From a virus, in IMG/VR virus record IMGVR_UViG_3300025887_002434, positions 1 to 26,166 of that record: a stretch of 26,166 nucleotides of DNA. One strand, 5' to 3'. Position numbers and translations under genes: made by a program. Of the stretch, positions 4,709 through 25,462 are shown one piece after another (position 1 is the stretch's first letter; each line of letters begins with the position of its first letter). Under the pieces are notes generated by a model. The model saw nothing but the letters and a program-made list of their open reading frames with translations, was not told where the DNA came from and did not search any database.

Positions 4709-4710
4709 TC

Positions 4711-5148: not shown

Positions 5149-5378
5149 ACCGACCGCAGACGCCAGAGGGCTGGCAGGTCTGGGACCTCGTCGGCCGCCT
5201 TGGCGGGCAACTGCGTGTGATCCCCGGCGCTGTGCTCGGCTGGGACATGGGTGCGGCGCTGTCTCTTGCTCGCGCGCTGGGCATAGATGCCCTGATCGCC
5301 GCCGAACTGCTGCCCGAGATCGAGGCGGTGATGGTGCGCAAACTGAACGAACAGATGGAAGGTGGCCGCGATGGCTGA
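4711..5378 (+). CDS. Tail assembly chaperone, -1 frameshift product (gpGT-like)
   Basis: Predicted fusion of about 222 residues: codons 1-115 of the chaperone gene, a -1 slip at 5049-5055, then 107 codons from base 5055 to the TGA at 5376-5378. The downstream frame is open from 5001 to 5378 but has no ATG before its middle and no ribosome site, so it can hardly be expressed alone. It encodes a plausible protein: DWSFGGGDRY, a C-x2-C-x3-C-x2-C cluster, TPEGWQVWDLVGRLGGQL, then a helical C-terminus LIAAELLPEIEAVMVRKLNE. It stops overlapping the tape measure ATG (5371). Phages with long tails commonly make the second chaperone (the T domain, which contacts the tape measure) by frameshifting; lambda G/GT is the model. 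That the slip occurs is inference. Confidence 0.7.
5049..5055 (+). other. Slippery heptamer for programmed -1 frameshift
   Basis: In the chaperone frame the codons are GAA AAA AAC, giving A AAA AAC, a perfect X XXY YYZ heptamer within a run of seven A in otherwise GC-rich sequence. GCGCCC just downstream (5062-5067) could pair with GGGCGC about 50 bases later as a stimulatory structure, although this was not folded. Confidence 0.75.
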
Positions 5379-7839
5379 GAAACGGGTCAGTGTGCGCCTC
5401 GTGGCGGAGGGCGGCCGTCAGGTCCGCGCCGAGCTGGAGGGTGTCGGCGTGGCCGGGGCAAAGGGGTTTGGTCGTCTTTCCCGCGAGATGGAACTGGCCA
5501 ACACCCGGCTTGCAGGTTTCGCGCGCCGGGCAGGCATCGCGATGTCTGCAGCCGCCGCTGCCGCCACCGCGTCGCTCGGCCTGATTGTGCGCTCCACCGC
5601 CGAGAGTGCGACCCAAATCCGCCAGTTCGCGCAAGTGGCTAATGCCACGCCTGACGCCTTGCAACGTTGGTCGGCAGGCGCGCGGACGGTCGGCATCGAG
5701 CAGGAAAAGCTCGCCGATATCCTGAAGGACGTGAACGACCGGGTCGGGGACTTCCTGCAGACTGGCGGTGGGCCGATGGCGGATTTCTTCGAGAGCGTAG
5801 CCCCGCGCGTGGGCGTCACGGCTGATCAGTTTGCGCGGCTGTCGGGGCCTGAGGCGCTGCAGCTCTATGTGGACACGCTGGAACGCGCCGGGCTCGGCCA
5901 GCAGGAGATGACGTTTTATTTGGAAGCCATGGCATCCGATGCCACCCGACTGCTGCCGCTCCTGCGCAACGGGGGCGCGGAAATGGCGCGGCTGGGCGAC
6001 CAGGCGGCTGACCTTGGCGCGGTTCTGGACACCGACGCAATCGAAGCCCTGCGGCGCACGCAGGTGGCACTTGGCACACTGTCGCTGGTGTTCGAGGGCC
6101 TTCGCAACCGGATCGCCGTCGCCGTGGCACCTTCTCTTGAGGCTTTGGCAAACGCATTCGTGGCACTTGCCTCAGACGGTGGAATCTTGCGGTCGGCCAT
6201 CGACGCGCTGATTGGCAACCTCGGTCGCCTCGCCACCTATGCCGCCACCTTCGCCGCCGTCATAGCCGGGCGCTGGGTGGCGGGGCTGGCAGCCGCGGCG
6301 CTCTCTGTCCGTGGCCTCGCCACAGCACTGGTCTTCCTGCGCGGGGCGCTGATCCGCACCGGCATTGGGGCGCTGATCGTCGGCGCTGGCGAGCTGGTCT
6401 ATCAGTTCTCGCAGCTGGTGGACCGGGTTGGCGGCGTAGGCGAGACGTTCCGGCTGCTGGGCGATCTTGCGAAAGAGGTATGGTCCCGGACGGGGCTGTC
6501 GTTCGATGCCGCCTTTGCCAATATGGCGGCCGGGTGGGAAGGTCTGAAAGCAGCGGGGCTTTCGGCGCTTGAGGGTACCATCGCGGGCGTCGTCAGTTTC
6601 GGCGACCGGACGGCGGCCATTTTCCAAGGCGCCTATGATGCAGCGGTCGCAATTTGGGGCAGTCTCCCCGGTGCCATCGGCGACTTTGCCTTCCAGGCCG
6701 CGAACGGACTGATCTCAGGCGTCGAAGCAATGCTGAACGGTGTCGTCACCCGCATCAACACCTTCATCACCGGTCTCAATGCAGCACTGGCGCTGCTGCC
6801 CGACTGGGCAGTGGGCGAAGGCGGCGTCCGGATCGGGACGCTTGATCCGCTGGAACTCGGGCGGATTGGAAACCCCTTCGAAGGGGCGGCCACGACCGCC
6901 GGAACTGCCGCCGCCGATGCCTTCTCAGCTGCGCTATCCCGCACCTATCTCGAACCGCCTGACCTTGGCCTTGGCACCTTGGCCGAGGATGCGCGCGGCC
7001 GCGCCGACGGATATCGCGAGGCAGTTGGCATGCTCGCAGATGCAGCAGTTCGGCCGCTCGCCAGTTGGCAAGCGCTGCGCGACGCGGTCACTGGGACCGG
7101 ATCAGAGGCGGACGCCGCGCTGGCAGATGCTGCCAGTTCTGCTGATGCGCTGGCGGCCGGGCTGAATGACACCGCCACTGCAGCAGATGGCGCAGGCGGT
7201 GCGGCCCGCAATGCCGGTGCGGCGGCGGCTGCGGGTGCCGAACAAGCGGCAACAGGCTGGGGCGCTGTGACGGCGGCACTGGCCGACTATGCTGCAAAGG
7301 CCCGCGATATTGGAGGCGATATCGGCCAGACACTGGTTGGCGCGTTCCAGAGCGCGGAAAACGCTGTGGCCGACTTCGTCAAATCCGGTAAGCTCGATTT
7401 CCGCGATCTCGTCACCTCGATGATTGCCGATCTGGCCAAGCTGGCCGCGCGGCGGTTCATCCTCGGGCCTATCGCCAATGCGCTCTCCGGCGCGCTGGGC
7501 GGTGCTGGCGGTTTGTTCGCCGACATCCTGCATGCCGGTGGCACGGTCGGATCATCGGGCCCGGGCCGCATGGTGCCAGCGATGGCGTTCGCCGGTGCCC
7601 CACGCATGCATTCTGGGGGCTGGGCCGGGCTGAAGCCGGATGAGGTGCCAGCGATCCTGCAACGCGGCGAACGGGTGTTATCCCGTCGCGAGGCCGCTGG
7701 TTATGGACAGGAGCAGTCTTCCGCGCCTGCCATCAATGTCACCATCATGTCGCGTGACGCCGAAAGCTTCCGGCAATCCCGCACGCAGGTCGCAGCCGAC
7801 ATTGCTCGCGCCGTATCCCTCGGCAGGAGGGGAATGTGA
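5371..7839 (+). CDS. Tail tape measure protein
   Basis: An 822-residue protein that sets tail length and is coated by the chaperones. The ATG at 5371 (MAEKRVSVRLVAEGG) is chosen over the GTG at 5362 because GGAAGG sits about eight bases upstream of it and it overlaps the stop of the frameshift product. It has a coiled N-terminal region, hydrophobic stretches around residues 45-65 and 285-345, and Ala-rich helices. The conserved C-terminal block is LDFRDLVTSMIADLAKLAARRF followed by GGWAGLKPDEVPAILQRGERVLSRREA, the standard end of the lambda/GTA-type tape measure. The size is moderate, predicting a fairly short siphovirus tail of roughly 120 nm by the usual 1.5 angstrom per residue rule. Confidence 0.9.
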   Translation: MAEKRVSVRLVAEGGRQVRAELEGVGVAGAKGFGRLSREMELANTRLAGFARRAGIAMSAAAAAATASLGLIVRSTAESATQIRQFAQVANATPDALQRWSAGARTVGIEQEKLADILKDVNDRVGDFLQTGGGPMADFFESVAPRVGVTADQFARLSGPEALQLYVDTLERAGLGQQEMTFYLEAMASDATRLLPLLRNGGAEMARLGDQAADLGAVLDTDAIEALRRTQVALGTLSLVFEGLRNRIAVAVAPSLEALANAFVALASDGGILRSAIDALIGNLGRLATYAATFAAVIAGRWVAGLAAAALSVRGLATALVFLRGALIRTGIGALIVGAGELVYQFSQLVDRVGGVGETFRLLGDLAKEVWSRTGLSFDAAFANMAAGWEGLKAAGLSALEGTIAGVVSFGDRTAAIFQGAYDAAVAIWGSLPGAIGDFAFQAANGLISGVEAMLNGVVTRINTFITGLNAALALLPDWAVGEGGVRIGTLDPLELGRIGNPFEGAATTAGTAAADAFSAALSRTYLEPPDLGLGTLAEDARGRADGYREAVGMLADAAVRPLASWQALRDAVTGTGSEADAALADAASSADALAAGLNDTATAADGAGGAARNAGAAAAAGAEQAATGWGAVTAALADYAAKARDIGGDIGQTLVGAFQSAENAVADFVKSGKLDFRDLVTSMIADLAKLAARRFILGPIANALSGALGGAGGLFADILHAGGTVGSSGPGRMVPAMAFAGAPRMHSGGWAGLKPDEVPAILQRGERVLSRREAAGYGQEQSSAPAINVTIMSRDAESFRQSRTQVAADIARAVSLGRRGM

Positions 7840-8465
7840 TGGCGTTTCATGAGGTTCGATTTCCCGACAACATCAGCCGCGGTGCGCGCGGCGGCCCCGA
7901 ACGGCGCACGCAAGTGGTCGAACTGGCAAGCGGCGATGAAGAGCGCAACGCCAGCTGGGCTAACTCGCGTCGTCGCTATGATGTGGCATATGGCATTCGC
8001 CGTGCCGACGATCTGGCGGCGGTGGTTGCTTTCTTCGAGGCCCGCAACGGTCGCCTGCACGGGTTCCGCTACAAGGATTGGGCTGACTACAAGTCTTGCC
8101 TTCCCTCGCAGGCGGTCGCCCCGACCGACCAGCTCATCGGAACCGGCAATGGTGCTGTCTCCACGTTCGCACTCTTGAAACGCTACACCTCCGGTGCCCA
8201 AAGCTGGACCCGCGCCATCGCTAAACCGGTCGCAGGCAGCATTCGCCTCGCTCTGAACGGGGTGGAGCAGATGTCAGGCTGGGGCGCCGATACCGCCACC
8301 GGCAGCGTGAGTTTCGCCACCGCCCCCGGTGCAGGCGTCGCAATCACCGCAGGCTTCGAATTCGATGTGCCCGTCCGGTTCGACACCGACACGCTCGATG
8401 TCACGCTCGACATTGAACGGTTGGGCTCAATCACATCTATCCCCTTGCTGGAGATCCGCAGATGA
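7839..8465 (+). CDS. Distal tail protein, DUF2460 (GTA g12-like)
   Basis: A 208-residue DUF2460 protein that forms the ring at the end of the tail tube and anchors the tail tip. The start ATG at 7839 overlaps the tape measure stop (TGATG) with GGAGGGG ahead of it. MAFHEVRFPDNISRGARGGP is the conserved opening of the family. Further family-like elements are NGRLHGFRYKDWADYKSC and the C-terminal EFDVPVRFDTDTLDVTLD with the final SIPLLEIRR. It is the first of four genes syntenic with the tail tip of the R. capsulatus gene transfer agent. Confidence 0.92.
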   Translation: MAFHEVRFPDNISRGARGGPERRTQVVELASGDEERNASWANSRRRYDVAYGIRRADDLAAVVAFFEARNGRLHGFRYKDWADYKSCLPSQAVAPTDQLIGTGNGAVSTFALLKRYTSGAQSWTRAIAKPVAGSIRLALNGVEQMSGWGADTATGSVSFATAPGAGVAITAGFEFDVPVRFDTDTLDVTLDIERLGSITSIPLLEIRR

Positions 8466-9346
8466 AATCCCTTTCCCCTGCGTTGCAGGCCCATTTGGAC
8501 GATGGCACGACAACTTTGTCCTGGTGCTGGCGGATTTCGCGCAGCGATGGCGTGGCGCTCGGCTTCACCGACCATGACCGCGCCCTCAGTTTCGATGGTA
8601 CCGATTTTGAGCCCGAAAGCGGGTTTGCCGCCTCAGAAATCCGATCCGGCTCCGACCTTGCCGTCGACGCGCAGGACGCGAGTGGCGTGCTGACCTCGGA
8701 TCGCATCACCGAGACCGACATACTCGACGGGTGCTGGGACAACGCGGCGGTGGAGTTGTGGCGGGTGAACTGGGCGGACACCAGCCAACGGGTTCTGCTG
8801 CGGCGCGGTGCTGTGGGTCAAATTAGGCGCGGGCGGATGGCTTTCGTGGCGGAAGTCAGGTCGTTGGCGCATGTGTTGGGCCAGACCGTTGGACGGACGT
8901 TTCAGGCCGGGTGCGATGCCGCGCTGGGCGACGCGCGGTGCGGGATCGATTTGGATAACGCTATCTACAAGGGCACGGGAGTGGTCACCGACCTATTGCG
9001 AGACCGAGCGTTCATGGCCTTGGGGCTGTCGGCATTCGAGGCGGGATGGTTTACCTCAGGCACCCTGAGTTGGACCAGTGGTGCAAATAACGGGCGCATT
9101 ACCGAAGTTCTGGCCCATGGATTGGCCGATGCCATCGCGACACTAACCCTGCTGGAAGCGCCGGTGCGCACCATAGCCGAGGGCGACAGCTTCATTGCGC
9201 GGGCTGGTTGCGACAAACGCGTCGCCACTTGTAGCGCGAAGTTCGCGAACGTCGCAAATTTCAGAGGCTTCCCCAGCATCCCCGGCCAGGATGCCGTGCT
9301 GCGTTATGCGAGCCAAGATGGCGGCTATGAAGGAGAAGTGCTGTGA
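8462..9346 (+). CDS. Tail-tip hub protein, DUF2163 (GTA g13-like)
   Basis: A 294-residue DUF2163 / phage BR0599-type protein, a component of the baseplate hub between the distal tail ring and the TIM-barrel tip protein. It starts with an ATGA overlap to the previous stop. Family features seen are the opening LSPALQAHLDDG, the GLGFTDHDR-like block (GVALGFTDHDRALSFDG), and a C-terminal cysteine cluster with GCDKRVATCSAKFANVANFRGFP, which in GTA homologues binds an iron-sulfur cluster. Four cysteines are visible: two near residues 150-160 (GCDAALGDARCG) and two near 250-258. The next gene overlaps by four bases (GTGA). Confidence 0.92.
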   Translation: MKSLSPALQAHLDDGTTTLSWCWRISRSDGVALGFTDHDRALSFDGTDFEPESGFAASEIRSGSDLAVDAQDASGVLTSDRITETDILDGCWDNAAVELWRVNWADTSQRVLLRRGAVGQIRRGRMAFVAEVRSLAHVLGQTVGRTFQAGCDAALGDARCGIDLDNAIYKGTGVVTDLLRDRAFMALGLSAFEAGWFTSGTLSWTSGANNGRITEVLAHGLADAIATLTLLEAPVRTIAEGDSFIARAGCDKRVATCSAKFANVANFRGFPSIPGQDAVLRYASQDGGYEGEVL

Positions 9347-9789
9347 CGTCATTCCAATCGGCAGCCAACCCAGACGTCGTCATCGCTACTGCCCGCAGCT
9401 GGCTCGGCACACCGTACCACGATCAGGCCAGTTTGCATGGGGTCGGTTGCGATTGCCTTGGCCTCGCGCGCGGCGTCTGGCGCGAGGTTGTGGGCGACGA
9501 GCCTTTTCCAATCCCGCCTTACAGCCGGGATTGGGGCGAGACCGGCCCGCGCGAGGTGCTGGCCGAGGGGGCAAGGGCGATGATGCAGGAAATCGTCCCG
9601 ACCGAGGCCAGTCCAGGCGCATTGGTCCTGTTCCGGATGGCACCCCGCGCCATCGCCAAGCATGTCGGGATCCTGACCGGACCCGACCACTTCATTCACT
9701 CCTACGAACGGCTGGGTGTCATCGAAGAAGCCCTGACCCCGGCGTGGCGGCGGCGCATCGCCTTCGCTTTCCTGTTCCCTCAAAGCTGA
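9343..9789 (+). CDS. NlpC/P60 cell-wall peptidase of the tail tip (GTA g14-like)
   Basis: A 148-residue NlpC/P60 cysteine peptidase that probably opens peptidoglycan during DNA entry. The catalytic cysteine is C38 in GCDCLGL, the general-base histidine H107 in AKHVGILTG, and H119 in FIHSYERLGV is the likely third residue. The start is a GTG at 9343 that overlaps the preceding stop, with AAGGAGAAG as ribosome site. It corresponds to the fourth gene from the end of the GTA tail cluster (TIGR02219 type) and sits immediately before the large tip protein, as in the GTA. Confidence 0.92.
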   Translation: MTSFQSAANPDVVIATARSWLGTPYHDQASLHGVGCDCLGLARGVWREVVGDEPFPIPPYSRDWGETGPREVLAEGARAMMQEIVPTEASPGALVLFRMAPRAIAKHVGILTGPDHFIHSYERLGVIEEALTPAWRRRIAFAFLFPQS

Positions 9790-9799
9790 GACTTCACAC

Positions 9800-12700
9800 A
9801 TGGCAACTTTGGTTCTCGGTGCCGTCGGCTCCGCGATTGGCGGCAGCATTGGTGGGTCCATCCTCGGCTTTTCCAGCGCAGCGATCGGCGGCTTCATCGG
9901 ATCAAGCATCGGATCGGTGGTCGACAGTTGGATCGTCTCGTCGCTGGCCCCGGCGCAACGCATCGAGGGCGCGCGGCTCGACAGCTTGCGCATGACCTCC
10001 TCGACCGAAGGGGCCGTGATCCCACGCCTCTTTGGCCGGATGCGGATCGGCGGCAACGTGATCTGGGCCACGGATTTCCGCGAGGAGACCAACACGACCA
10101 ATCAGGGCGGTGGCAAGGGTGGCGGACCCAAGGTCACGACGACCGAGTATCTGTACTTTGCATCCTTCGCCGTAGCGCTCTGCGAAGGGAAGATTACTGG
10201 CATTGGCCGGGTCTGGGCCGACGGCAAGGCCATGGACATGACGGGCGTCACCTGGCGCTGGTATCCGGGCGACGAGGCCCAAACTGCTGACCCGTTCATT
10301 TCAGCGAAAATGGGGGCGGCCAACACCCCAGCCTATCGCGGTACGGCCTATGTCGTTTTCGAGGAACTGGACCTCAGCGCCTTCGGCAATCGTCTGCCAC
10401 AGATCAGCTTCGAGGTATTCCGCCCGCTGGCGGATGCTGACACCGCCGAAGGGCTGGTGAAGGCCGTGACCCTGATCCCGGCGTCGGGTGAGTTCAGCTA
10501 TGCGACGGCCACGGTCAAGAAATCCTCAGGCGCTGGCGGCGCGACCACTGCGGAAAACCTGAACGCGATTGCCGATACATCGGACATCGTTGTGGCGCTG
10601 GACCGGCTGCAATCCATGGCTCCCGTCTTGGAATCTGTGTCACTGGTTGTGGCGTGGTTTGGCGATGACCTGCGCGCAGGGAACTGCAAAGTGCGCCCCG
10701 GCGTGGAGGTAGCCGCCAAGACCACGACGCCCTCGGCATGGTCCGTGAACGGTGTCAGCCGGGCCGACGCGTTTCTGGTCAGTCGTGATGCCGAGGACCG
10801 CCCGGTCTATGGCGGCACGCCAGCTGACTTTGCGGTGGTGCAAGCGATCAGGGAAATGAAAGCGCGGGGCCTGCGCGTCACTTTCTATCCGTTCATCCTG
10901 ATGGACGTGCCATCTGGCAATACCAAACCCAATCCATACAGCGCCAATGCCGCCAGTATCGGCCAGCCGACTTTCCCCTGGCGCGGCCGGATCACCTGTT
11001 CCCCAGCGGCGGGCTATGCGGGAACCGTAGACAAAACCGCCGCGGCCACCACGCAAGTATCGGCTCTGTTCGGCACCGCCATGCCCGCAAGCTTCAATGT
11101 TTCAGGCAGCGATGTCAGCTGGACCGGTCCGGTCGGCGAATGGTCGCTGCGCCGGATGATCCTGCACTACGCCCAACTGTGCAAAGCCGCCGGGGGCGTC
11201 GATGCCTTTCTGATCGGATCGGAAATGCCCGGCCTGACCACCATCCGCTCAGGGGCCAGCACCTATCCTGCCGTTACCGCGTTCAAAGCCCTCGCCAGCG
11301 ATGTGCGCACGATCCTCGGCGCTGGAATCAAGATTGGCTATGCGTCCGACTGGTCGGAATACTTCGGGCACCACCCTGCCGATGGGAGCGGCGATGTCTT
11401 CTTCCACCTCGACCCGCTCTGGTCCGACAGCAACATCGATTTCATCGGCATCGATAACTATATGCCGCTGTCCGATTGGCGCGATGGGTTTGACCATGCC
11501 GACGCTGCATTGGCCGCCGCGATCTACGACCGCGCCTATCTGCAATCCAACATCACCGGTGGCGAGGGGTTTGACTGGTTCTACGCCAACCCGGCTGACC
11601 GCGCCGCGCAGGTCAGGACGCCGATCGCCGATGGCGGCGCGGGGAAACCATGGGTGTTTCGCTACAAGGATCTGCGGACCTGGTGGCAAAACCTGCATTT
11701 CAACCGATCGGGCGGGGTGGAGAGCGGAACGCCCACCGCATGGGTGCCACAGTCCAAGCCGATCTGGTTCACCGAACTCGGCTGCCCGGCGATTGATCGC
11801 GGCACCAACCAGCCGAACGTCTTCTTTGATCCCAAGTCCTCGGAAAGCTTCACGCCCTATTTCTCGCGCGGTTGGCGGGATGACGCGATCCAACGGGCCT
11901 ATCTCGAGGCGACGTATCTGTTCTGGGGTGCCGCGGCGAACAATCCTGTGTCCGCCATCTATGGCCAACGGATGGTCACGGAGCCGGAATGCGCCGCCTG
12001 GACCTGGGATGCGCGGCCCTATCCGTTCTTTCCCGAACTGACTGGTGTCTGGACCGACGGGCCGAATTGGCGGCTGGGCCACTGGCTGACAGGGCGGCTG
12101 GGCGCGGTGTCGCTGGCAGCGCTCGTCCGACACCTTTGCCTGCGCGCGGGAATGCCGGAAGACCAGATCGAAGTCTCCGGCCTTTGGGGTGCCGTTGAAG
12201 GCTATGTGATCTCGGCACTGGAAGCTCCGAGGGCGTCGATCAGCACCTTGGCTAGGCACTTCGGCTTCGATGCCGTCGAGAGCGAGGGCCGCATCAAGTT
12301 CCTGATGCGCGGCCGGATCGCCAGCGCCATCGTCACCCCTGACAGCATGGTGGCACCATCATCGGCGCAAGGCGACGTCATGGAACTCACCCGCGCACAA
12401 GAAACCGAACTGCCGCAAGCCCTCAAATGGCAAGTCGCTCGCGCCGACGAGGATTATGATGCAGCACAGGTCGAAGCCCAACGGATCACCGTAGACACCA
12501 CGCGCATCGCCTCCGAGGCGTTCCCGATGGCGGTGCCACCCGAAGAGGCCGAACGGCGCTGCCGTCGCGCGCTGATGGAGGCGTGGGTTGGGCGCGAAAG
12601 TGCGGTGTTTCGCCTGCCGCCCTCGCGCCTGGCGCTCGATCCCTGCGACGTCATCCTGCTCGACCACGATGGCCGCCTGACAGAATTGCGCCTCGTATCC

Positions 12701-13771
12701 ATAGCCGATTCGGACCTGCGCAGCATCGACGCCGTGCGCCAGGACCGGTCGGTCTATGACCTACCACCCGGCGAGCCACGCCCGGCGTCGCTGTCGAAGC
12801 CCACTGTATTCGGCACGCCTGACGTCGTCCTCTTGGACCTGCCGCAGCTGCGCGAGGATCAACCGGCGCACCGGCCCTTGATCGCCGCCCATGCCAAGCC
12901 GTGGCCGGGCGGGATCGCGGTCTACCGCAGCGCCGCGACCGACGGCTTTGCCCTGATGACCACTTTTAGCACTCGGGCGCGGATGGGCGTGCTCGCAGCT
13001 GACTTCTATGAAGGGCCGGTCTCGAGGTTCGATCTCGGCAATGCGTTGGTCATCGATCTATATTCTGGCACCCTCGAGAGCGTCACAGACATCAGCCTGC
13101 TGGGCGGGGCGAATGCGCTGGCCATCGAGACCAGCGCTGGGCAGTGGGAAATCATCCAGGCTGGCAATGCTGATTTGATCGCGCCGGGTCGCTATCGTTT
13201 GACCCGGCTGCTTCGTGGTCAGCGCGGAACTGAATACGCAGTTGCCAGCGTCGTTGCCACAGGCGCGCGGTTGGTGGTGCTGGATACGGCCCTCGCCAGC
13301 CTGCCGATCTCCGAAGCCGATCTCGGGCTGCCATGGAACTGGCGCACTGGCCCGGCGTCTAAGCCAGTCAGTGACGAGACCTTTGTCGCAACGACGTTCA
13401 CGCCGGAGGGCGCTGGGCTGCGGCCCTTCTCGGTGGGCCATGTCGAACAGCCATGGCGCACCGCGCGCAACACCGGTGACCTTACCATCCGCTGGACGCG
13501 CCGGTCGCGGTCGCTGGCAGCAGACACCTGGGGCGCGGGCGATGTACCCTTGGCCGAGGACAGTGAAGCCTATGAGGTGGAAATCCGCGACGGCGGGGCA
13601 ATAAAGCGCACGCTGAGTACCACCACGACCAGCGTTCTCTACACCGCCGCGCAGCAGACCGCTGATTGGGGTAGTCCCCTCGGCCCCGGCCAATCCCTCG
13701 CGATCCGTATTTACCAGCTCTCGGCTTTGATCGGCCGGGGCGCTGGGCGATCCGTCACCCTCACTTTCTGA
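9800..13771 (+). CDS. Large tail-tip protein with GTA TIM-barrel domain (GTA g15-like)
   Basis: A 1323-residue receptor-facing tip protein. The N-terminus is a glycine-zipper-like stretch (residues 1-45, repeated GG/GS). A glycoside-hydrolase-like TIM barrel lies around residues 420-760, with candidate catalytic acids E475 (IGSEMPGL) and E659 (WFTELGCPAIDRG) and a GIDNYMPLSDWRDG block. A phage-tail (tail tip attachment) domain spans roughly 800-1050, and a C-terminal beta domain has LTRLLRGQRGTEYA. This is the domain order of GTA protein g15, and the length is close to the family (about 1300). It may cleave capsule or peptidoglycan glycans. It is separated by 10 bases from the peptidase gene and belongs to the same transcript. 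Confidence 0.92.
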   Translation: MATLVLGAVGSAIGGSIGGSILGFSSAAIGGFIGSSIGSVVDSWIVSSLAPAQRIEGARLDSLRMTSSTEGAVIPRLFGRMRIGGNVIWATDFREETNTTNQGGGKGGGPKVTTTEYLYFASFAVALCEGKITGIGRVWADGKAMDMTGVTWRWYPGDEAQTADPFISAKMGAANTPAYRGTAYVVFEELDLSAFGNRLPQISFEVFRPLADADTAEGLVKAVTLIPASGEFSYATATVKKSSGAGGATTAENLNAIADTSDIVVALDRLQSMAPVLESVSLVVAWFGDDLRAGNCKVRPGVEVAAKTTTPSAWSVNGVSRADAFLVSRDAEDRPVYGGTPADFAVVQAIREMKARGLRVTFYPFILMDVPSGNTKPNPYSANAASIGQPTFPWRGRITCSPAAGYAGTVDKTAAATTQVSALFGTAMPASFNVSGSDVSWTGPVGEWSLRRMILHYAQLCKAAGGVDAFLIGSEMPGLTTIRSGASTYPAVTAFKALASDVRTILGAGIKIGYASDWSEYFGHHPADGSGDVFFHLDPLWSDSNIDFIGIDNYMPLSDWRDGFDHADAALAAAIYDRAYLQSNITGGEGFDWFYANPADRAAQVRTPIADGGAGKPWVFRYKDLRTWWQNLHFNRSGGVESGTPTAWVPQSKPIWFTELGCPAIDRGTNQPNVFFDPKSSESFTPYFSRGWRDDAIQRAYLEATYLFWGAAANNPVSAIYGQRMVTEPECAAWTWDARPYPFFPELTGVWTDGPNWRLGHWLTGRLGAVSLAALVRHLCLRAGMPEDQIEVSGLWGAVEGYVISALEAPRASISTLARHFGFDAVESEGRIKFLMRGRIASAIVTPDSMVAPSSAQGDVMELTRAQETELPQALKWQVARADEDYDAAQVEAQRITVDTTRIASEAFPMAVPPEEAERRCRRALMEAWVGRESAVFRLPPSRLALDPCDVILLDHDGRLTELRLVSIADSDLRSIDAVRQDRSVYDLPPGEPRPASLSKPTVFGTPDVVLLDLPQLREDQPAHRPLIAAHAKPWPGGIAVYRSAATDGFALMTTFSTRARMGVLAADFYEGPVSRFDLGNALVIDLYSGTLESVTDISLLGGANALAIETSAGQWEIIQAGNADLIAPGRYRLTRLLRGQRGTEYAVASVVATGARLVVLDTALASLPISEADLGLPWNWRTGPASKPVSDETFVATTFTPEGAGLRPFSVGHVEQPWRTARNTGDLTIRWTRRSRSLAADTWGAGDVPLAEDSEAYEVEIRDGGAIKRTLSTTTTSVLYTAAQQTADWGSPLGPGQSLAIRIYQLSALIGRGAGRSVTLTF

Positions 13772-13781
13772 AAGCGCACCC

Positions 13782-15707
13782 ATGTCCGACATCACCACCC
13801 ATCTCCTGCTGCCCTATATCCTGGCATCGCAGGCTCAGAAGCATGTCACCTATAACGAGGCGCTGCGGTTGCTGGACGCCATGGTGCAGCTGTCGGTGCT
13901 GGATCAAAACCGCACGACCCCAGCCGCAAGCCCGGCCGACGGCGACCGCCATATCGTTGCCTCAGGTGCCACCGGAGTTTGGACAGGGTGGGATCTGAAC
14001 GTGGCGTTCTGGGTCGATGGCGTCTGGATGCGGCTGGTCCCCCGCCCGGGTTGGCTGGCATGGATCGCCGCGGAACAAGCCTTTGTCGTCTGGAACGGCA
14101 GCACATGGGATTTTGTTGGCGAACCGGCGGATGTGTCAGATGCCGTGTTCAGCCTGGTCAACGAGGCGGATCCAACCAAGAAGGCGCTGTTCTCGCTGTC
14201 GGGTATCAACACCGGAACCACCCGGACCTTCACGCTGCCCAATACCTCGTCGGAACTCGCGATTCTTGCAGGCACGCAGACCTTCAGCGGCAACAAGACT
14301 TTCTCCGGCACCCTGACGGCCTCAGGAACTGTCACAGTCTCGGCGGCGGCGGCAACGATTGGCACGGCGACGACGACTGCCACCTACGGCATGGGTACCG
14401 GGACGACGACCACCGGCGTCACCAAGACGCTGAACCTTGGCACCGGCGGCGCGTCTGGATCCACGACGGTCATCAACATCGGATCGGCCACGGCAGGCGC
14501 TGGCGGCACGACAGTGGTCAACACGCCCTCTGTCACATTCGCCAACGCCGTGACTCAGGTCGGCATGCCGCAAGCGAACCTGACCGCGCAGCTGCTGGGC
14601 CTCGGTGGGGCGACGGCCGACAGCTACAACCGGCTATCGATCAACGCCCCGGCCATGCTGTTCAATAACGCAGGCGCCGGGATCGAGGCAACGGTGAACA
14701 AGGCTGCGGCCGGAAACGATGCGGCCTTCGCCTTCAAGACAGGGTTCTCGGCGCGGGCGCTGATCGGCCTTTTGGGCAGTGACGATTTCAGCTTCAAGGT
14801 CAGTCCCGATGGCGGAACGTTTCACGAAGCCATAAAGATCGACCGCAGCTCCGGCCGGGTCGAACTTCCCGAGCCGCTGCACATGCCCAGCTTGCCTGTA
14901 GCGCCAAACCCGCCACCTGCAGGAAAGCTCGCGGTCTATGCCCGGGACCGCGCCGGAGCGGGGTGGCTGGATGTGCAGCGTCCATCCGGCCGCTTCTTTC
15001 CCCTGCAGCCGCACTTCGGGGTCAATCGGATCGCCACATGGGCACCGTCCACGGGCACAACCGTCAACACCAACGGGATGCCGCGCACCGCCGTTGGCAC
15101 CGTGGCCACGCCAACGCTGGCGACCACCAACCTCTCGACGAGCATGCGGCGTTGGCGCGTGACGAGTGCCGCAACCGTCGATGCGGTAGCCGAGGAACGG
15201 TCTGCCGGATGGGTCTGCTGGCGGGGCAATGCCGACGGGCTTGGCGGCTGGAGCTACGTCAACCGGTTGTCGATGACGACGCTTCAAGCAACGGGCATGG
15301 GGTTCTTTGGGCTCTATGGCTCGACTGCTGCGCTGGTGACTACCCTAACGCTGGCCGCCGCGGTGAACTGCATCGGTATCGGTTTCCAGCGTGGCACACA
15401 CACCAATTGGCAGCTGGTGCACAATGACGGCAGCGGCGCGCCAACGCTGACCGATCTGGGCGGTAGCTTTCCGGTGGCCAGCACCACCAACGTCTTGTCG
15501 CTCTATATCGCCGCCGCCCCGAACGGATCGGACATCGGCGTACGTGTCGTTGAAGAGGTCAGCGGCGCAGCGGTTGAATTCACCATCACCACCGACATGC
15601 CTGCGACGACCCAACTCCTGAGCCCCCGAAACTACATGAACACCGGCGCCACCGCCGCGGCCGTCGCCTACGACTGCTCCGGCGTCTACGTCGAAACCGA
15701 CTTCTGA
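13782..15707 (+). CDS. DUF2793 tail fibre / spike-like protein
   Basis: A 641-residue protein with a DUF2793 domain at residues 1-112 (HLLLPYILASQAQKHVTYNE and GWLAWIAAEQAFVVWNGSTW), common on fibre proteins of Rhodobacteraceae phages. Residues 165-260 are a Thr/Gly/Ser-rich low-complexity repeat (TFSGNKTFSGTLTASG, GTATTTATYGMGTGTTTTG) that should form a beta-helical or fibrous shaft. The C-terminal 250 residues look globular (SGRFFPLQPHFG, FGLYGSTAALVTTLTL, TNWQLVHNDGSG) and probably carry the receptor-binding head. It ends 11 bases before the next gene. Receptor and host range cannot be read from sequence. Confidence 0.8.
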   Translation: MSDITTHLLLPYILASQAQKHVTYNEALRLLDAMVQLSVLDQNRTTPAASPADGDRHIVASGATGVWTGWDLNVAFWVDGVWMRLVPRPGWLAWIAAEQAFVVWNGSTWDFVGEPADVSDAVFSLVNEADPTKKALFSLSGINTGTTRTFTLPNTSSELAILAGTQTFSGNKTFSGTLTASGTVTVSAAAATIGTATTTATYGMGTGTTTTGVTKTLNLGTGGASGSTTVINIGSATAGAGGTTVVNTPSVTFANAVTQVGMPQANLTAQLLGLGGATADSYNRLSINAPAMLFNNAGAGIEATVNKAAAGNDAAFAFKTGFSARALIGLLGSDDFSFKVSPDGGTFHEAIKIDRSSGRVELPEPLHMPSLPVAPNPPPAGKLAVYARDRAGAGWLDVQRPSGRFFPLQPHFGVNRIATWAPSTGTTVNTNGMPRTAVGTVATPTLATTNLSTSMRRWRVTSAATVDAVAEERSAGWVCWRGNADGLGGWSYVNRLSMTTLQATGMGFFGLYGSTAALVTTLTLAAAVNCIGIGFQRGTHTNWQLVHNDGSGAPTLTDLGGSFPVASTTNVLSLYIAAAPNGSDIGVRVVEEVSGAAVEFTITTDMPATTQLLSPRNYMNTGATAAAVAYDCSGVYVETDF

Positions 15708-17255: not shown

Positions 17256-19691
17256 TCATTTTCTATGTCGCTGTACCGACACGACCTCATTCTCAGCTTC
17301 CAACGCAACCATAATTGTTTCCAAATGTTGTACATCGCGGACATTGACATTGATCGCTAGTGTATGAAAACCTTCAGTCATATCCTGCAAACTGATTTGG
17401 CAGACGTTAGAGCCCAAATCATGGATCAAAATGAAAACGCGCCCCAAAATATTTGCGTTGTTCAAAACGGCGAGTTCAAGAGAAACCGTATGCACGGCAG
17501 CGTGTCGTCCCGCGCGCCACTCCATATCCAACCATCGATCTGGTCGACTCTCATATTTAGCCAGTTCAAAGCAGTCGATGGCGTGTAAAAGAATTTCCTT
17601 GCCGCTGGAAATGCCAACGATTCTTTCACCAGGCACTGGCTGGCAGCACGAAGCCATTGAAAAGTGTTGGTCGGGTGTGAGACCCACGACTGAGGTCTCT
17701 CTATCGATTTCATCGCTGTGGGTATCGTCAAGCTCTGGGTAAAGGACTCGGACCACGTGATCCCCCGAAATTTTTCCTTCACCTAGATGCTGAAAAACCT
17801 CGGACCCGGATGTAAGACCGATACGTTTAGCAACGACCATCATTGCTTTTTCCGTGACAGCTTTTCCAACGATTTCAAACGCTACGCGAGCTAGTTCTCG
17901 TCCCAATCCAACGAAACGCTCTCGCTCCCCCTCGCGCAGCGCTTTTCGAATCGCAGCTCTCGCCCTACCAGTGACTGCAACACCAACCCAACTCACTTGG
18001 GGTGTTTGTCCTTCAGCGACTATTATTTCTACCGACTGACCATTCTTTAAGCGGGTCCAAAGAGGGACACGAAGCCCATCGATCTTAGCTCCCACACAAG
18101 CGTCACCGATCCGTGTGTGAATTGCGTATGCGAAGTCAATAGGCGTGGCACCATGGGGCAACTTGATGACCTCGCCTTGGGGTGTGAAGCAGAAGACACA
18201 GTCAGCGTAAATCTGCAGCCTTGTAGATTCGAGAAATTCGTCTTGGTCTGTAGTAGCCTTGAATTGCTCCGACAAACTTGAAATCCATTTAGCCGGGTCC
18301 ACAGCCAAATAGTTTTCTGAGCGTAGCCCATTTCGATATGATAGTCCTTCAGCTACACCTCCTTTGGCTATCTCATGCATTTGGTGAGTCCGTATCAGGA
18401 CACTCATTCGCTTCCCATCACGACCCGATACCGTTGTATGGAGTGATCGATAACCGTTTGATTTTGGCTGACTGATGTAGTCTTTGAAGCGCCCCGGAAC
18501 GGCGCGCCACCGCTGATGAATTGCTCCTTGGATACGATAGCAATCGTGTTCCGTAGAAGTCAGTACCAGAAACTGGTAGACATCAGTCAGCCGTTTGAAA
18601 CTTAGTTCTTTCTCTTGCATCGAGAGCCAGATCGAATAGGGCTTTCGAGCACCTCCTGATACCTCTGCGACAATTCCAGCCTTCTCTAGCTCGATGTGAA
18701 TATCTTTGATAACTTTCTCTGCGATATCACCGCCTTCCTTCTTTAGCGCAATGAAACGGCGAATGATCGATGAACGAGCTTTTGGGTTGAGCACCCCAAA
18801 TGCCAGATCCTCAAGTTCATCTCTCATCCAATGCATCCCCATGCGACCGGCGAGGGGGCCAAAGACATCCAGGGTCTCATGTGCTTTCTGCGCCTGTTTG
18901 TCCGGTCGCATCGTTTCTATGGTACGCATATTGTGCAACCGATCCGATAGCTTGACTAGGAGGGCCCGAAGATCCTTTGACGTAGCCATGAACAGCTGCC
19001 GGAAATTTTCTCCTTGCTTGTTTTCGATTGATGCAAGCTGAAGATTGGTCAGTTTTGTCACACCTTCTACTAGGTCTGCGATCTCCTCTCCAAATTCCTC
19101 AACTATCGTCGCCCGAGAGGCCGTTGTGTCTTCAATAGTGTCATGAAGCAACGCAGTTACGATTGATGCATCGTCGAGCCTTTGTTCAGCCAGCATCATC
19201 GCAACCGCAACTGGATGCGAGAAATACGGTTCCCCGGAATGCCTGAACTGTCCTTCATGCATTCTTGCTCCATAGGCAAATGCAGTCCGAATAAGTTCTT
19301 CATTTGTACGTGGATTATATGCCCGCACTAGATTGACAAGATTGTCAACATCCTCGGCCCCTGAAAAATCAATAGGAACCGCGCCTCCTTTCTTCAATAA
19401 GGCAAAAGGAATCTCGCGATCAACGAATTTGTTATTTTCAAATATTCGGCAAGTTGATTGCGTTTCAGGGGAAATATCTCCCATACGAAAAATGCAATCA
19501 TAGACACAGGCATCGCGAAACTGGATCTCGCTCATATCGCAACCTGAGAAGTCTAAACCTTCCCAGATACCGTTATTAAAAAAGGTTCTTGGATCTTCCC
19601 CTGTTGCACCAACCAGGTCAAACAGATCATCTGAGCGGCAAGCATCGACCGCAGCATATTGTTTCGCTGCCCTACTTGTTACCCGCATCAT
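17256..19691 (-). CDS. Long RelA/SpoT homologue: intact (p)ppGpp hydrolase, degenerate synthetase, pentapeptide-like N-terminus
   Basis: An 811-residue RSH protein. Domains: pentapeptide-repeat-like residues 46-68 (F48, M53, F58, V63, F68 at five-residue spacing); HD hydrolase about 115-300; synthetase 340-450; TGS 491-555; Cys/His region 660-715 (SCCQPVPGERIVG); ACT 728-811. Hydrolase residues are all present: R150 and H159 in RHSGEPYFSHP, H183-D184 and E187-D188 in LLHDTIEDT, D250 and N254 in LSDRLHN. The synthetase keeps D370 and Y414 but has GGARKPYSIWLSM and MSVLIRT. The usual GR.K...RK Arg and Lys residues, the R of AVR (L375) and the catalytic E of E.QIRT (S430) are lost. Prediction: a dedicated alarmone hydrolase. 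It overlaps the upstream gene by 20 bases, with AGGAAGG five bases before the first ATG. Chromosomal Rel proteins have about 700-740 residues and lack the N-terminal extension. Confidence 0.9.
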   Translation of the reverse strand: MMRVTSRAAKQYAAVDACRSDDLFDLVGATGEDPRTFFNNGIWEGLDFSGCDMSEIQFRDACVYDCIFRMGDISPETQSTCRIFENNKFVDREIPFALLKKGGAVPIDFSGAEDVDNLVNLVRAYNPRTNEELIRTAFAYGARMHEGQFRHSGEPYFSHPVAVAMMLAEQRLDDASIVTALLHDTIEDTTASRATIVEEFGEEIADLVEGVTKLTNLQLASIENKQGENFRQLFMATSKDLRALLVKLSDRLHNMRTIETMRPDKQAQKAHETLDVFGPLAGRMGMHWMRDELEDLAFGVLNPKARSSIIRRFIALKKEGGDIAEKVIKDIHIELEKAGIVAEVSGGARKPYSIWLSMQEKELSFKRLTDVYQFLVLTSTEHDCYRIQGAIHQRWRAVPGRFKDYISQPKSNGYRSLHTTVSGRDGKRMSVLIRTHQMHEIAKGGVAEGLSYRNGLRSENYLAVDPAKWISSLSEQFKATTDQDEFLESTRLQIYADCVFCFTPQGEVIKLPHGATPIDFAYAIHTRIGDACVGAKIDGLRVPLWTRLKNGQSVEIIVAEGQTPQVSWVGVAVTGRARAAIRKALREGERERFVGLGRELARVAFEIVGKAVTEKAMMVVAKRIGLTSGSEVFQHLGEGKISGDHVVRVLYPELDDTHSDEIDRETSVVGLTPDQHFSMASCCQPVPGERIVGISSGKEILLHAIDCFELAKYESRPDRWLDMEWRAGRHAAVHTVSLELAVLNNANILGRVFILIHDLGSNVCQISLQDMTEGFHTLAINVNVRDVQHLETIMVALEAENEVVSVQRHRK

Positions 19692-21322: not shown

Positions 21323-22045
21323 CTACTGAGTCGGCATCGACTTCAGCGTATTATCAGTATTCAGACTCAGTGCGCTGCGCCACAACGGCGTCTTGAACAC
21401 GTGGTGCACGTGCCTGCCCTCGCGCTCTTCTCGGGTTTGGACTAGCAATCCGACCCATTCAAGCGGACGCAGGACGCAGGAGGAGAACGCGGCCATTTCG
21501 CGCCATCCTGCATTGTCCCAGTCATGCTCGTCGCCATAGAAGGCTGCGAACAGCGCCCGCTCGGTGGTGCCGTGGTCGGCTTCGACGTTGATGACATTCA
21601 TCCAGACATCCCATTTTCCGAAAGGGTGTTCCTCGAAGCGGGCGTAGGACGCATGGTCGATCTTGAGAACATAGAAGGGGATGAGTTCAGCAAACAACTG
21701 CGCTGGGGCCTGTGCCAGCTCTGCACCGCGTTTGGTTATGCGGAATTCACCTTTGAAGTGCCGCCCCAGGCGCAGGGTGATCAACAAGTAGTGCAGCACC
21801 TCGAGCGGCGGGAATTCATATTCATTGATGACCTTGTTGTAGCGGAACATTTCCTCCGCGCTTGAGCCCGGCCAGTTGAAGTGTTCGACGGCCCAGTGGA
21901 CGAAGACACGCTTGAACGCTTTCGTCTTCGTCAATCCGATTGCCCCATGTTCCTGAGTGTTCTGCAGCGTCAGCAACGCCGCGCGCAGGAGCGGCGAATG
22001 CGCAAGATCGGGATGGTCATCGGACAGGGGGCGGAAGGTGATCAT
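21323..22045 (-). CDS. Conserved-looking protein of unknown function
   Basis: About 240 residues from the ATG at 22045 (MITFRPLSDDHPDLAHSPLL). An upstream in-frame ATG at 22159 would add 38 residues that are Arg/Pro-rich and look non-conserved. The protein has helical segments and a winged-helix-like part (PPLEVLHYLLITLRLGRHF, then FRITKRGAELA), then FGKWDVWMNVINVE and WREMAAFSSCVLRPLEWVGL, where a second winged-helix-like unit ends in VFKTPLWRSAL. I have the impression of having seen such proteins in other Rhodobacteraceae but can name no function. Composition is GC-richer than the RSH operon and closer to a typical host gene. It stands alone, with a hairpin terminator about 80-100 bases before its longer start. 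Confidence 0.65.
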   Translation of the reverse strand: MITFRPLSDDHPDLAHSPLLRAALLTLQNTQEHGAIGLTKTKAFKRVFVHWAVEHFNWPGSSAEEMFRYNKVINEYEFPPLEVLHYLLITLRLGRHFKGEFRITKRGAELAQAPAQLFAELIPFYVLKIDHASYARFEEHPFGKWDVWMNVINVEADHGTTERALFAAFYGDEHDWDNAGWREMAAFSSCVLRPLEWVGLLVQTREEREGRHVHHVFKTPLWRSALSLNTDNTLKSMPTQ

Positions 22046-22239
22046 TGCGTGATGCTGCCACGGGATTTTTCGCGGGGCCAGATGCAAAGCGATAAGCGGC
22101 ACAACGCGATCAACTGATGTGGATGTCGGTGAGTCGCGCTTCTTTGCACGCGGCTGCATGTCGTTGCCTGCTTATGCGTTCTGGTGCGGTTTTTCTGGTC
22201 CAGTGTTGATGTGGCGTTGATGTAGACTGTAAACGCAAA

Positions 22240-22753: not shown

Positions 22754-24361
22754 ATGCGCATTTCATACTCTGTCGAAAACATTCGAAGGCTGACTCAAGT
22801 TGATCCTGTTGAAATTCGACCCATTACGGTTCTCGTGGGACGGAACAGCGCTGGAAAGAGTACCTTCTTAAGATCATTACCACTTATCAGGCAGTCCATT
22901 GAGACGCGGAGCAGTGCCCCAATTCTCTGGTATGGCGATTTGGTTGATTTTGGAGATTTCAAAACAGCAATTTCGGATGACGAGAAGGTCGGTACAGCTA
23001 TCTTTTCGTTCAAAGTGGATGACCTAACTGGCCGTAGCCGCCGAACTGTAAGTCATCAAATCAACTATCTGATCTGGTACAAGACGCAAAACCTACACGT
23101 TCGAGGCCTGGAAGTGAGATATTTTGTCGGGGCTGAAGGAGGAAAAACTGTCTTAAAGAAAATCTCTCTCAAAATTCCGGGTGAGGAAATAGAATGTGAG
23201 ATCATCTACCGCGGCAGGTCCGGGACCGGGGGAACGGTTTCCGTGAACGGCGAAGAAATTAGTCAGATATCTCAGAGTTTTGAAATTGTTAATGCTAGCG
23301 ATAACTTATTCAGTTCTCCAAGCTTGATTTCGAAGGTGAGGGATTCAACTTCAAACGTTAGAAGGCGAAACTCGTATCAAGACGTGTTGGTCGTGGAATT
23401 AGAGAAGCTATTGAGGCGGAGCGTGACCAGAATTTCAAGTGACGACACTTTTAGAACAGAAGTTGCAAACATTATGAGCAGCAAGGTCTGTCTTAACGAA
23501 GTGTGGTCGGAATTAGCAGCGGATGCAGGGACCGTTTCATTCAAAAAGTTCTATCAGTCCATGCAACATAGTGGTTCTTCAAAGGTAAGAAACAGTGTCG
23601 CAACGATCCAGAAAACGTTCCGCTCACTTCAAGTACTTGACCTTCTGAGTGAAAAACTCACGGCTTTCTTCCTTGGCGTAGGCTACCTAGGTCCAGCCCG
23701 CGCTGCCGGTGAACGCTATTATCGCAAGCAGGAATTAGAAGTATCTGAGATTTTGCCCAACGGTTCAAACCTTCCCATGTTTTTGGATTCGCTTTCGACG
23801 AATCAGAAGCGAGCATTTTCTGACTGGGTGGAGAATTTGTTTGGGTACGGTGTAGAGCTTAAATCTTTTGAGGGGCACATCAGCATAAACCTCAAGGCTG
23901 GAAAAAATTCGGTCAACGTTACCGACACAGGATACGGGGTGTCCCAGATATTGCCGGTTTTGGCGACTGTCTGGTGGGCTAGCCAACGTCCGGCGGAGCG
24001 TTGGAGCGCTGCCCATCCGCGTAATACAAATATTCGTACAATTGCAATCGAGCAGCCGGAATTGCACTTGCATCCTGCACACCAAGCAAAGTTGGCGGAC
24101 GTATTCGCTGAAGGGATCGCACTTGGCGCGCGCGAGCATTCGACGAAAATAGTGAATGTTCTTGTCGAAACGCACAGCGAATCTCTAATCAACCGGCTTG
24201 GTGAACTAATTGAAATCGGAACCCTCAACAAGGATGATGTCCAGATCGTGATTTTTTCGGCAGAGGATGACATCAACTCACCGACCAAGGTGTCCTTGGC
24301 GGAGTTTGATGACCGAGGCGCGTTAACAAATTGGCCGTTTGGCTTCTTTAATTATTCTTGA
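22754..24361 (+). CDS. ABC/OLD-type AAA ATPase of a putative defence pair (DUF3696-like)
   Basis: A 535-residue ATPase. Walker A is GRNSAGKST at residues 29-37, the ABC-type signature is DTGYGVSQILPV around 391-401, Walker B is IAIEQPELHLHP at 430-441, and the switch histidine is in VETHSES (H474). The C-terminal NWPFGFF resembles the end of DUF3696-type ATPases. Residues about 100-380 between the nucleotide-binding halves are an insertion with charged helices. Such SMC/OLD-like single-chain ATPases usually work with a nuclease or other effector in anti-phage systems, and here a second gene follows 12 bases later. Start ATG 22754 follows a weak TTGGACGA site. The gene is AT-richer than the phage structural genes. 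Confidence 0.85.
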   Translation: MRISYSVENIRRLTQVDPVEIRPITVLVGRNSAGKSTFLRSLPLIRQSIETRSSAPILWYGDLVDFGDFKTAISDDEKVGTAIFSFKVDDLTGRSRRTVSHQINYLIWYKTQNLHVRGLEVRYFVGAEGGKTVLKKISLKIPGEEIECEIIYRGRSGTGGTVSVNGEEISQISQSFEIVNASDNLFSSPSLISKVRDSTSNVRRRNSYQDVLVVELEKLLRRSVTRISSDDTFRTEVANIMSSKVCLNEVWSELAADAGTVSFKKFYQSMQHSGSSKVRNSVATIQKTFRSLQVLDLLSEKLTAFFLGVGYLGPARAAGERYYRKQELEVSEILPNGSNLPMFLDSLSTNQKRAFSDWVENLFGYGVELKSFEGHISINLKAGKNSVNVTDTGYGVSQILPVLATVWWASQRPAERWSAAHPRNTNIRTIAIEQPELHLHPAHQAKLADVFAEGIALGAREHSTKIVNVLVETHSESLINRLGELIEIGTLNKDDVQIVIFSAEDDINSPTKVSLAEFDDRGALTNWPFGFFNYS

Positions 24362-24373
24362 TGGTAAACTTGC

Positions 24374-25462
24374 ATGATCTTTACACTTAATGGCTCCGTC
24401 GATGAATTAGCGGCTCTGCCAGATGATGAAGTCGAGAACCTTTTTACCATACTCCTGGATGCCGATCGGTCAGGTCGACATTTGGTCGTCATTGAGCGTG
24501 GTGTCTGTAGCTGGGGCGTCGAAAATCTTGATTTATCTGGCCAAAACAGGACACATCTTCGCGGGCTACGAGAGCAATATGCCACACGCGGAAACATCGA
24601 AAGATACGCGGGCTCCTACCTAGAGGTTGTAGTTGGCGATTGTCCTGTCATCAAAGTCGATGACTATTTCAAGATTGGTCACAGTAGCTTCATTTCAGGT
24701 GACTACGCGACATCTAAGACAAAGATGGTCGTCGAAAACCTGAAGGCGGATAGCAAGCTTTATGAATATTTGTTTAACGTCGCAATAAAGCAGACTGTTG
24801 TTCCAAGCTTGGCTGTCGATTTTGTCATGGGCGGAGGCAATACGACGGTCACGGTTTTCGAGGCGGAAATTGAAAAGCACAGGGTTTCTATTTGTGCTGT
24901 TGATACCGACAGAATTTCACCATGTGATCTACTTGGCGAAACAGCGAAAAAAGTAAAAAATAGACATTCCAAAAGGAACTTGCAGCCAAGCGACCCCGCA
25001 ACTGCCTATGTCGGCATTGCAATTGAAACGATCGGGCATGAGTTGGAGAACTATATACCTTTGTCAGCCATAAAACTACTCGACTGCTTTCTTTGTCATG
25101 CTAGTCTTGACAATTTCGTTTCTCAGGAAACTTATGAGGACTCTCTGAATTGCTTCTGGCTCTACTTTGACACAAAGAAAGGGCTTGATGGGGCAAAGAT
25201 TCAGAAAAAAGTTGATGATGGGGTTAAACCGTCCAGCACCATCAGTTGGATTTGTGACAAAACGGGGACGCAGGAAACAGAGTTTGTTTCCCTGAAAATC
25301 CCTGGAATTGGAAGCTCGATCGTGGAGCATTTCCTGAAACATGATGCGGCCAAAGAGCGATATGTAGTGTTTAGCAGGACTGACTATTGGAAAACACTGT
25401 TCTTACGCCACTTTGAGAAACTACTTTGGTTCCTGGCCGCGCCTCAAGTCAGCCGTTCCTAA
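24374..25462 (+). CDS. Putative effector partner of the ATPase, TOPRIM/DUF4435-like core
   Basis: A 362-residue protein with no confident family. A beta strand ending VMGGGN (residues 151-156), a helix, then SICAVDTDR (D177-x-D179), and later GHELENYIP (residues 221-229) follow the order of DUF4435/TOPRIM-like proteins, where a strand-turn, a DxD and an E-N-Y element line the active site. The usual glutamate in the first motif is not obvious. The N-terminal 110 residues contain HLVVIERGVCSWGVENLDL and resemble nothing I know. It lies 12 bases after the ATPase stop in the same direction, so the two form an operon. Proposed role: nuclease-like effector controlled by the ATPase. The identification is inference. 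Confidence 0.65.
   Translation: MIFTLNGSVDELAALPDDEVENLFTILLDADRSGRHLVVIERGVCSWGVENLDLSGQNRTHLRGLREQYATRGNIERYAGSYLEVVVGDCPVIKVDDYFKIGHSSFISGDYATSKTKMVVENLKADSKLYEYLFNVAIKQTVVPSLAVDFVMGGGNTTVTVFEAEIEKHRVSICAVDTDRISPCDLLGETAKKVKNRHSKRNLQPSDPATAYVGIAIETIGHELENYIPLSAIKLLDCFLCHASLDNFVSQETYEDSLNCFWLYFDTKKGLDGAKIQKKVDDGVKPSSTISWICDKTGTQETEFVSLKIPGIGSSIVEHFLKHDAAKERYVVFSRTDYWKTLFLRHFEKLLWFLAAPQVSRS

Follow-up and report, generated by a model that had tools for sequence, protein, structure and literature searches.

A prophage-borne long RSH protein with a degenerate synthetase and a shared N-terminal domain: part of a possible two-gene conflict module

What role might a complete long RelA/SpoT (RSH) protein play among the cargo genes of a phage? 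The question is raised by an IMG/VR record of 26,166 bases, the whole of which was analysed and is termed the window here, with an RSH open reading frame on its minus strand (Table 1). The initial annotation had predicted a protein which degrades but does not make (p)ppGpp, and had described it as a one-way alarmone eraser carried by a mobile element. The reading tentatively favoured here, to which slightly less than even likelihood is attached, is that the gene supplies the variable component of a conflict module made up of two genes in a Rhodobacterales prophage cargo slot, where the payload is in this case a one-way alarmone hydrolase. The separate fates of the hydrolase and synthetase regions, the occurrence of the N-terminal domain in other proteins, the overlap with the upstream gene and the slot can each be established at the level of the sequence.

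A variable cargo slot in a Rhodobacterales prophage

By its gene content, the element is a Rhodobacterales prophage, of a bacterium related to Rhodobacter. The head, tail and lysin genes occupy positions 10 to 16767, with similarity to the GTA-like tail proteins of Rhodobacter phages. Matches to the phage genes were observed in 145 phage records, the best of these sharing 65 % identity over 96 % of the protein. The G+C content of the phage genes is 64-65 %, as against 49 % for the RSH gene and 47 % for its upstream partner. Sibling loci were gathered with the tail-fibre-like protein as query (best 80 of 210), and the lysin is present in 10/80 of these, with more than 3.7 kb of sequence past the lysin in four. 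The gene at the right edge of the slot, for which family database searches gave no match, has an orthologue in three of these four long siblings (L171, L182 and L185), with differing genes between lysin and orthologue. As L182 and L185 share one source-genome number, this gene would appear to move with the prophage, rather than to mark a single fixed host flank. The differing cargo across the siblings (Table 1) thus places the RSH gene in a variable slot, which often but not always holds defence-type genes. Its proposed location within a mobile element was borne out, with the lysin on one side and the recurring prophage gene on the other. That it might be the housekeeping Rel of the host is countered by this slot position, by the absence of the chromosomal neighbours seen in Pseudorhodobacter turbinis and by a synthetase which is not intact.

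Table 1. Features of the window and genes found past the lysin in sibling loci
Feature	Positions	Strand	Remarks
Head and tail genes of the phage, with major head protein, tape measure and GTA-like tail proteins	10..15707	+	Family and phage-collection matches
Low-G+C gene	2040..3110	-	45 % G+C; opposite strand within the 64 % G+C head-tail operon
Phage lysin, TIGR02594	16114..16767	+	Left edge of cargo slot
Tagged long RSH, 811 aa	17256..19691	-	Adaptor-like domain at the N-terminus (aa ~3-68, extended to ~115), then HD hydrolase, a synthetase in degenerate form, TGS, AH/RIS and ACT
N-terminal domain, RSH aa 3-68	19488..19685	-	Pentapeptide-like; common to FtsZ and DnaA fusions elsewhere; found with window-free profile
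Upstream partner, 348 aa	19672..20718	-	20-base overlap with the start of the RSH gene; stretch resembling an HTH, judged by eye only
Conserved gene	21323..22159	-	Right edge of slot; orthologues 82-86 % identical in L171, L182, L185
AAA ATPase and 362-aa gene	22754..25462	+	12 bases between the two; second gene without family
L171 sibling, past lysin			LRR protein and transposase
L202 sibling, past lysin			McrB-like and McrC genes
L182 sibling, past lysin			HTH-TPR protein
L185 sibling, past lysin			TIR-DeoR-sensor protein and HAD hydrolase
L175 shorter sibling, past lysin			PAS-sigma54 regulator (no defence gene)
L169 shorter sibling, past lysin			MFS transporter (no defence gene)

The AAA ATPase (PADLOC NsnB 1.5e-40 and PDC-M55A 5.7e-40; 79 families) and the 362-aa gene that follows it probably constitute a second two-gene defence system to the right of the slot. 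The TIR protein of L185 (positions 13531-14868, plus strand) is fused to a DeoR-type sugar sensor, so that here too a defence domain is linked with a copied host regulatory domain. The low-G+C gene among the head and tail genes gives a weak HNH_5 match (E 0.087, under the cut-off) and resembles a moron endonuclease.

Hydrolase and synthetase regions of the RSH

HD_4, RelA_SpoT, TGS, RelA_AH_RIS and ACT_4 are all detected above the Pfam cut-offs in the RSH open reading frame, and the long-RSH family model TIGR00691 scores 601 bits against a cut-off of 499. Judged by its domain content the protein is a complete long RSH, in which synthetase active-site residues have been replaced. Its nearest relatives by identity are the housekeeping Rsh proteins of the Rhodobacterales, with 60-64 % identity from residues ~80-117 to 811 among the best 80 of 583 genome contigs (61.9 % for P. 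turbinis). In a FastTree phylogeny with four alphaproteobacterial outgroups it groups with the Rhodobacterales, and given the low inner supports around it (0.27-0.38) only this grouping, and no placement inside it, is claimed. Identity to the Acinetobacter baumannii SpoT (7qpr) is lower than to the Rhodobacterales Rsh, and descent from the Moraxellaceae SpoT clade was indicated neither by this identity comparison nor by the tree, which comprised Rhodobacterales and the four outgroups and had no Moraxellaceae row. An AlphaFold model of the RSH has a mean pLDDT of 63, with values below 50 for domain 1-112, so that a fold search is informative for the RSH part only; the best matches of the modelled part were 7QPR (A. 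baumannii SpoT) and ribosomal RelA, as expected from the sequence.

Residues were compared with 82 other proteins, derived from 80 genome contigs, one plasmid-collection record and one phage-collection record, using a Rel_Seq numbering offset of ~106, which was read off where the match to 1VJ7 begins and ends; the functional roles of the named residues are those which we take them to have in Rel_Seq. The hydrolase residues R150, H159, H183, D184, E187, D188, D250 and N254 are kept in the window protein and in 82/82 others, as well as in the four outgroup Rsh proteins. At positions 347, 349, 356, 357, 375, 430, 432, 448, 449 and 450 of the synthetase region, all 82 others have R, K, R, K, R, E, Q, A, H and W, respectively, and all ten are replaced in the window protein, by G, R, L, S, L, S, L, E, G and L. 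The outgroups agree with the 82 at these positions, save that position 450 differs in Methylobacterium and Sinorhizobium, and position 356 in Methylobacterium alone. D370, K403, K410, N412 and Y414 of the synthetase region are retained. The initial annotation had listed the eight hydrolase residues as kept, five synthetase positions (347, 349, 357, 375 and 430) as changed to G, R, S, L and S, and D370 and Y414 as remaining, and each of these statements was confirmed, the five changed positions differing from 82/82 others.

Positions conserved in at least 98 % of 81 housekeeping sequences were regarded as near-invariant. In the window protein 6/93 of these are altered in the hydrolase region, 1/37 in the TGS, 4/29 in the AH/RIS, 2/23 in the zinc-finger region, 19/79 in the synthetase region and 11/20 in the ACT. 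The uneven change by domain (6/93 and 1/37 versus 19/79) suggests that the synthetase loss was aimed at the pocket, rather than resulting from chance or general decay. That the window RSH is a hydrolase without synthetase activity is thus a well-supported prediction, in agreement with the proposal that it would degrade but not make (p)ppGpp.

The same combination of kept hydrolase residues and lost synthetase residues characterises SpoT[Hs] of A. baumannii, which is described as a long RSH with an intact HD and a degenerate synthetase (PMC9974481) and provides the best structural match to the window protein (7QPR). Hydrolase-only long RSH proteins are known from the Moraxellaceae, where the loss of synthesis is demonstrated (PMC9974481). 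Unlike the window protein, SpoT[Hs] is chromosomal and gammaproteobacterial, and has neither an N-terminal tag nor an overlapping partner. Given that the window RSH branches with the Rhodobacterales Rsh, its synthetase loss looks to be independent of that in the Moraxellaceae SpoT[Hs].

A shared N-terminal domain and overlapping gene pairs

Housekeeping Rsh proteins begin at approximately window residue 110-117, and the window protein therefore has about 115 extra N-terminal residues, on which the initial annotation was silent. A profile was constructed from four N-terminal domains, with the window excluded, comprising a lone 86-residue open reading frame adjoining an LRR gene on the Roseobacter litoralis plasmid pROLI127, the start of an FtsZ homologue encoded by an alphaproteobacterial genome, the head of a DnaA homologue on the Rhizobium johnstonii plasmid pRlX5, and the head of a protein without known family that is cut by a contig end. 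Among 18,182 open reading frames, this profile finds residues 3-68 of the window RSH at an i-E of 3.7e-11, as its top match outside the training set. The Pfam Pentapeptide model gives 0.023 on the domain, under the cut-off. The domain was not matched in the partner open reading frames at E 0.01 or in other open reading frames of the window at E 1. Across the searches, matches were obtained in 1/390, 23/385 (two-row profile), 1/17 (already known), 4/15, 9/394 and 12/398 genomes, and most of the weaker ones read as ordinary pentapeptide-repeat proteins. The regions examined included seven of the nine from the 394-genome search (five modules, two not), four of the twelve from the 398-genome search (three modules, one not) and one each from the 385- and 390-genome searches (both modules). 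Neither the N-terminal-domain alignment nor the partner in locus L109 matched viral_contigs, and the N-terminal domain of the FtsZ fusion had no match among the phages.

Twelve loci, including the window, have an upstream gene of 226-375 residues adjoining the tagged gene on the same strand. With gene starts taken as the first mechanical start codons (R. johnstonii excepted, where the ATG at 5956 was used), the two genes overlap by 1-20 bases in 10/12 loci and are separated by 2 or 5 bases in the other two. The tag heads varied C-terminal parts, namely RSH, FtsZ and DnaA (one locus each), TPR proteins (two), a P-loop NTPase-like protein (one) and proteins without known family (four), while one locus has the bare domain adjoining an LRR gene and one a short remnant. 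The partners fall into three sequence groups (L109, L085 and L118; L144, L146 and L147; L142 and L145), with the L110 partner weakly linked to the first, and those of L140, L141 and the window standing alone. The window partner has no significant similarity to any other partner among the twelve loci, no Pfam, PHROG, NCBIfam, PADLOC or PDB match, and no match among plasmids; its AlphaFold2 model, predicted from the single sequence, had a pLDDT of 31 and was not used. An HTH was read by eye in some of the partners.

The tagged FtsZ is 83 % identical to the FtsZ of its own genome over residues 110-441 and retains the GTPase motif, the T7-loop aspartates and the C-terminal peptide, with a linker of 23 residues as compared to 231 in the native protein. 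In Caulobacter, linker-less FtsZ is described as dominant lethal (PMC6994171). The tagged DnaA consists of two pieces, 67 % and 87 % identical to Sinorhizobium meliloti DnaA, with a frameshift between them, and its first part shares 65-69 % identity with the DnaA of five Rhizobiaceae records; searches by DnaA identity did not reveal a Rhizobiales centre. In one family search, TPR proteins that bear the tag and have homologous partners were found in two genomes (L144:1978-3222 and L146:2870-3793), which indicates a module broader than the form with captured host proteins.

Three further regions were not counted as modules. In L143, the tagged protein (3269-4120, minus strand) includes a weak CarD-like stretch and might be a captured host regulator; its assignment as a tagged CarD was set aside, with a Pfam E of 0.06 (16 bits, under the cut-off) and only a 39-residue match to the genome's own CarD, and the upstream gene encodes a 93-aa XRE-like protein. 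L148 comprises a pentapeptide membrane protein adjoining a response regulator; in L149, no gene overlaps that of the pentapeptide protein as a partner would.

A second tagged RSH was not found among the sequences read one by one, and RSH matches occur in a further 109 phage records and in 294 plasmid records. In viral_contigs no match was obtained with the RSH, with its partner or with the A1 alignment, nor in genome_contigs with the RSH as single query. A faecal phage record (L003) with a long-RSH match from query residue 18 encodes an ordinary Rel, with the ten synthetase residues kept and without the N-terminal domain of the window protein.

Possible functions and related systems

In the conflict module that is tentatively favoured, the upstream partner would be made in an overlapping operon with the tagged protein, which would have a small adaptor-like domain in front and, behind it, an altered copy of one of the host's core proteins, here a Rhodobacterales Rsh predicted to degrade (p)ppGpp without synthesising it. 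The partner may hold the tagged protein or act as sensor, and when infection occurs or the partner is lost, the protein that it accompanies would act on the cell, in this case by stripping the alarmone. Sister payloads might similarly act on division (linker-less FtsZ) and on the start of replication (DnaA), the tag and partner supplying a constant logic and the C-terminal part the specificity. This is supported by the detection of the N-terminal domain with a window-free profile, the overlap in 10/12 loci, the FtsZ and DnaA fusions, and the four siblings with TIR, HTH-TPR, LRR or McrBC genes past the same lysin. The preservation of the TGS is also consistent with a payload, since in A. baumannii SpoT, a hydrolase-only enzyme, the TGS aids hydrolysis (PMC9974481). 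Against a module stand the dissimilarity of the window partner from the others, the twelve partners forming at least three unlinked groups plus singletons, and the lack of a second tagged RSH among the records examined. The other tagged proteins, being TPR proteins or without known family, appear more sensor-like than payload-like, a one-way hydrolase is no obvious toxin and the DnaA copy is frameshifted, all of which argue against a payload. The MFS transporter of L169 and the PAS-sigma54 regulator of L175 past the lysin, neither of them a defence gene, likewise weigh against the favoured reading.

Alternatively, the tagged copies may serve as integrated decoys, baiting phage or plasmid inhibitors of host Rsh, FtsZ and DnaA and causing the partner to fire; catalysis by the copy would then be unimportant, and loss of the synthetase would avoid side effects. 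The resemblance of the copies to host-lineage proteins (FtsZ 83 % to its own genome; DnaA 65-69 % to Rhizobiaceae; RSH 60-64 % to Rhodobacterales, best 80 of 583), the TPR or LRR nature of other tagged or adjoining proteins, which are typical recognition scaffolds, and the TIR and McrBC genes that siblings carry in this slot all fit such a role. A pure bait would, however, need no hydrolase site unless the inhibitor binds there, and this site is fully kept and, besides the TGS, is the most constrained; moreover, the family searches revealed no recognisable effector in the partner. Bait is considered rather unlikely, and an acting payload is preferred on account of the constraint on hydrolase and TGS and of the FtsZ copy, which bears exactly the deletion known to be poisonous. 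A plain prophage eraser, lowering (p)ppGpp so as to sustain the growth of a lysogen or infected cell or to oppose toxins that make alarmone, accords with the kept hydrolase, the lost synthetase and the prophage location. It leaves the shared N-terminal domain, the overlapping partner and the FtsZ and DnaA fusions unexplained, and the gene lies on the minus strand in a defence-type slot outside the lytic operon; we regard it as improbable. Of the one-way eraser initially proposed, the predicted one-way chemistry stands, but the protein is not a bare eraser, as it shares its N-terminal domain with FtsZ and DnaA fusions and has an overlapping upstream partner, and the growth-sustaining and toxin-countering roles become only one of several possible functions. 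Maintenance mainly through addiction to the mobile element, with the partner as antitoxin and autoregulator and the tagged copy as toxin, would be in line with the overlapping two-gene order, the putative antitoxin being first, and with sister loci on plasmids with VapBC-type pairs. The overlapping arrangement resembles type II toxin-antitoxin systems in gene layout, but strong toxicity is not expected from a hydrolase-only RSH and the HTH of the partner was read by eye only, so that this explanation is considered very unlikely.

RSH chemistry in a mobile two-gene setting is shared with toxSAS toxins and their small alarmone hydrolase antitoxins, but these pairs are short and single-domain, whereas the window RSH is an 811-aa multidomain protein with no adjoining synthetase toxin. 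In the integrated decoys of plant NLRs, a copy of a host target is fused to a signalling protein; there is no NLR here, and a decoy role would be putative. The closest published concept is the effector-associated domain (EAD) of NTP-dependent conflict systems, a small non-enzymatic adaptor domain heading varied effectors in conflict operons, among which FtsZ/tubulin homologues are listed as rare effectors (Kaur et al. 2020, PMC7159879). As described there, EADs occur on both core and effector (PMC7159879), unlike the present domain, which was not found on the partners, and the loci have no MoxR/vWA core. The Panacea toxin-antitoxin network also consists of two-gene modules with one variable half, but there it is the antitoxin domain that is constant (PMC8832971), while in the present loci the variable protein bears the constant part and its partners differ widely from one another. 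No description of a tagged-RSH module was recognised in the literature covered, which was judged by titles and abstract openings and mostly lay outside subscription journals and preprints.

More tentatively than the module itself, the loci may represent a class of alphaproteobacterial mobile two-gene immune or anti-host modules, which capture core host genes for alarmone control, division and the start of replication, disable or trim them (a dead synthetase, a missing FtsZ linker) and place them behind a common adaptor, turning hubs into payloads or baits. If so, the conflict proteins of prophages and plasmids are assembled out of copied host hub proteins and all read out through one small domain, alarmone hydrolysis becomes tied to prophage defence cargo, and integrated decoys could be tested directly against corrupted-mimic payloads in bacteria, with the adaptor domain as search key for further such fusions.

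RSH-related genes were also observed on other mobile elements. The conjugative plasmid pMC4 of Sphingopyxis indica (L158) encodes a full long RSH in which all of the checked synthetase residues are intact. Furthermore, large Dickeya phages encode a protein annotated as a phosphohydrolase with an HD-only match (query 126-300), and small alarmone-hydrolase-like phage genes thus already exist.
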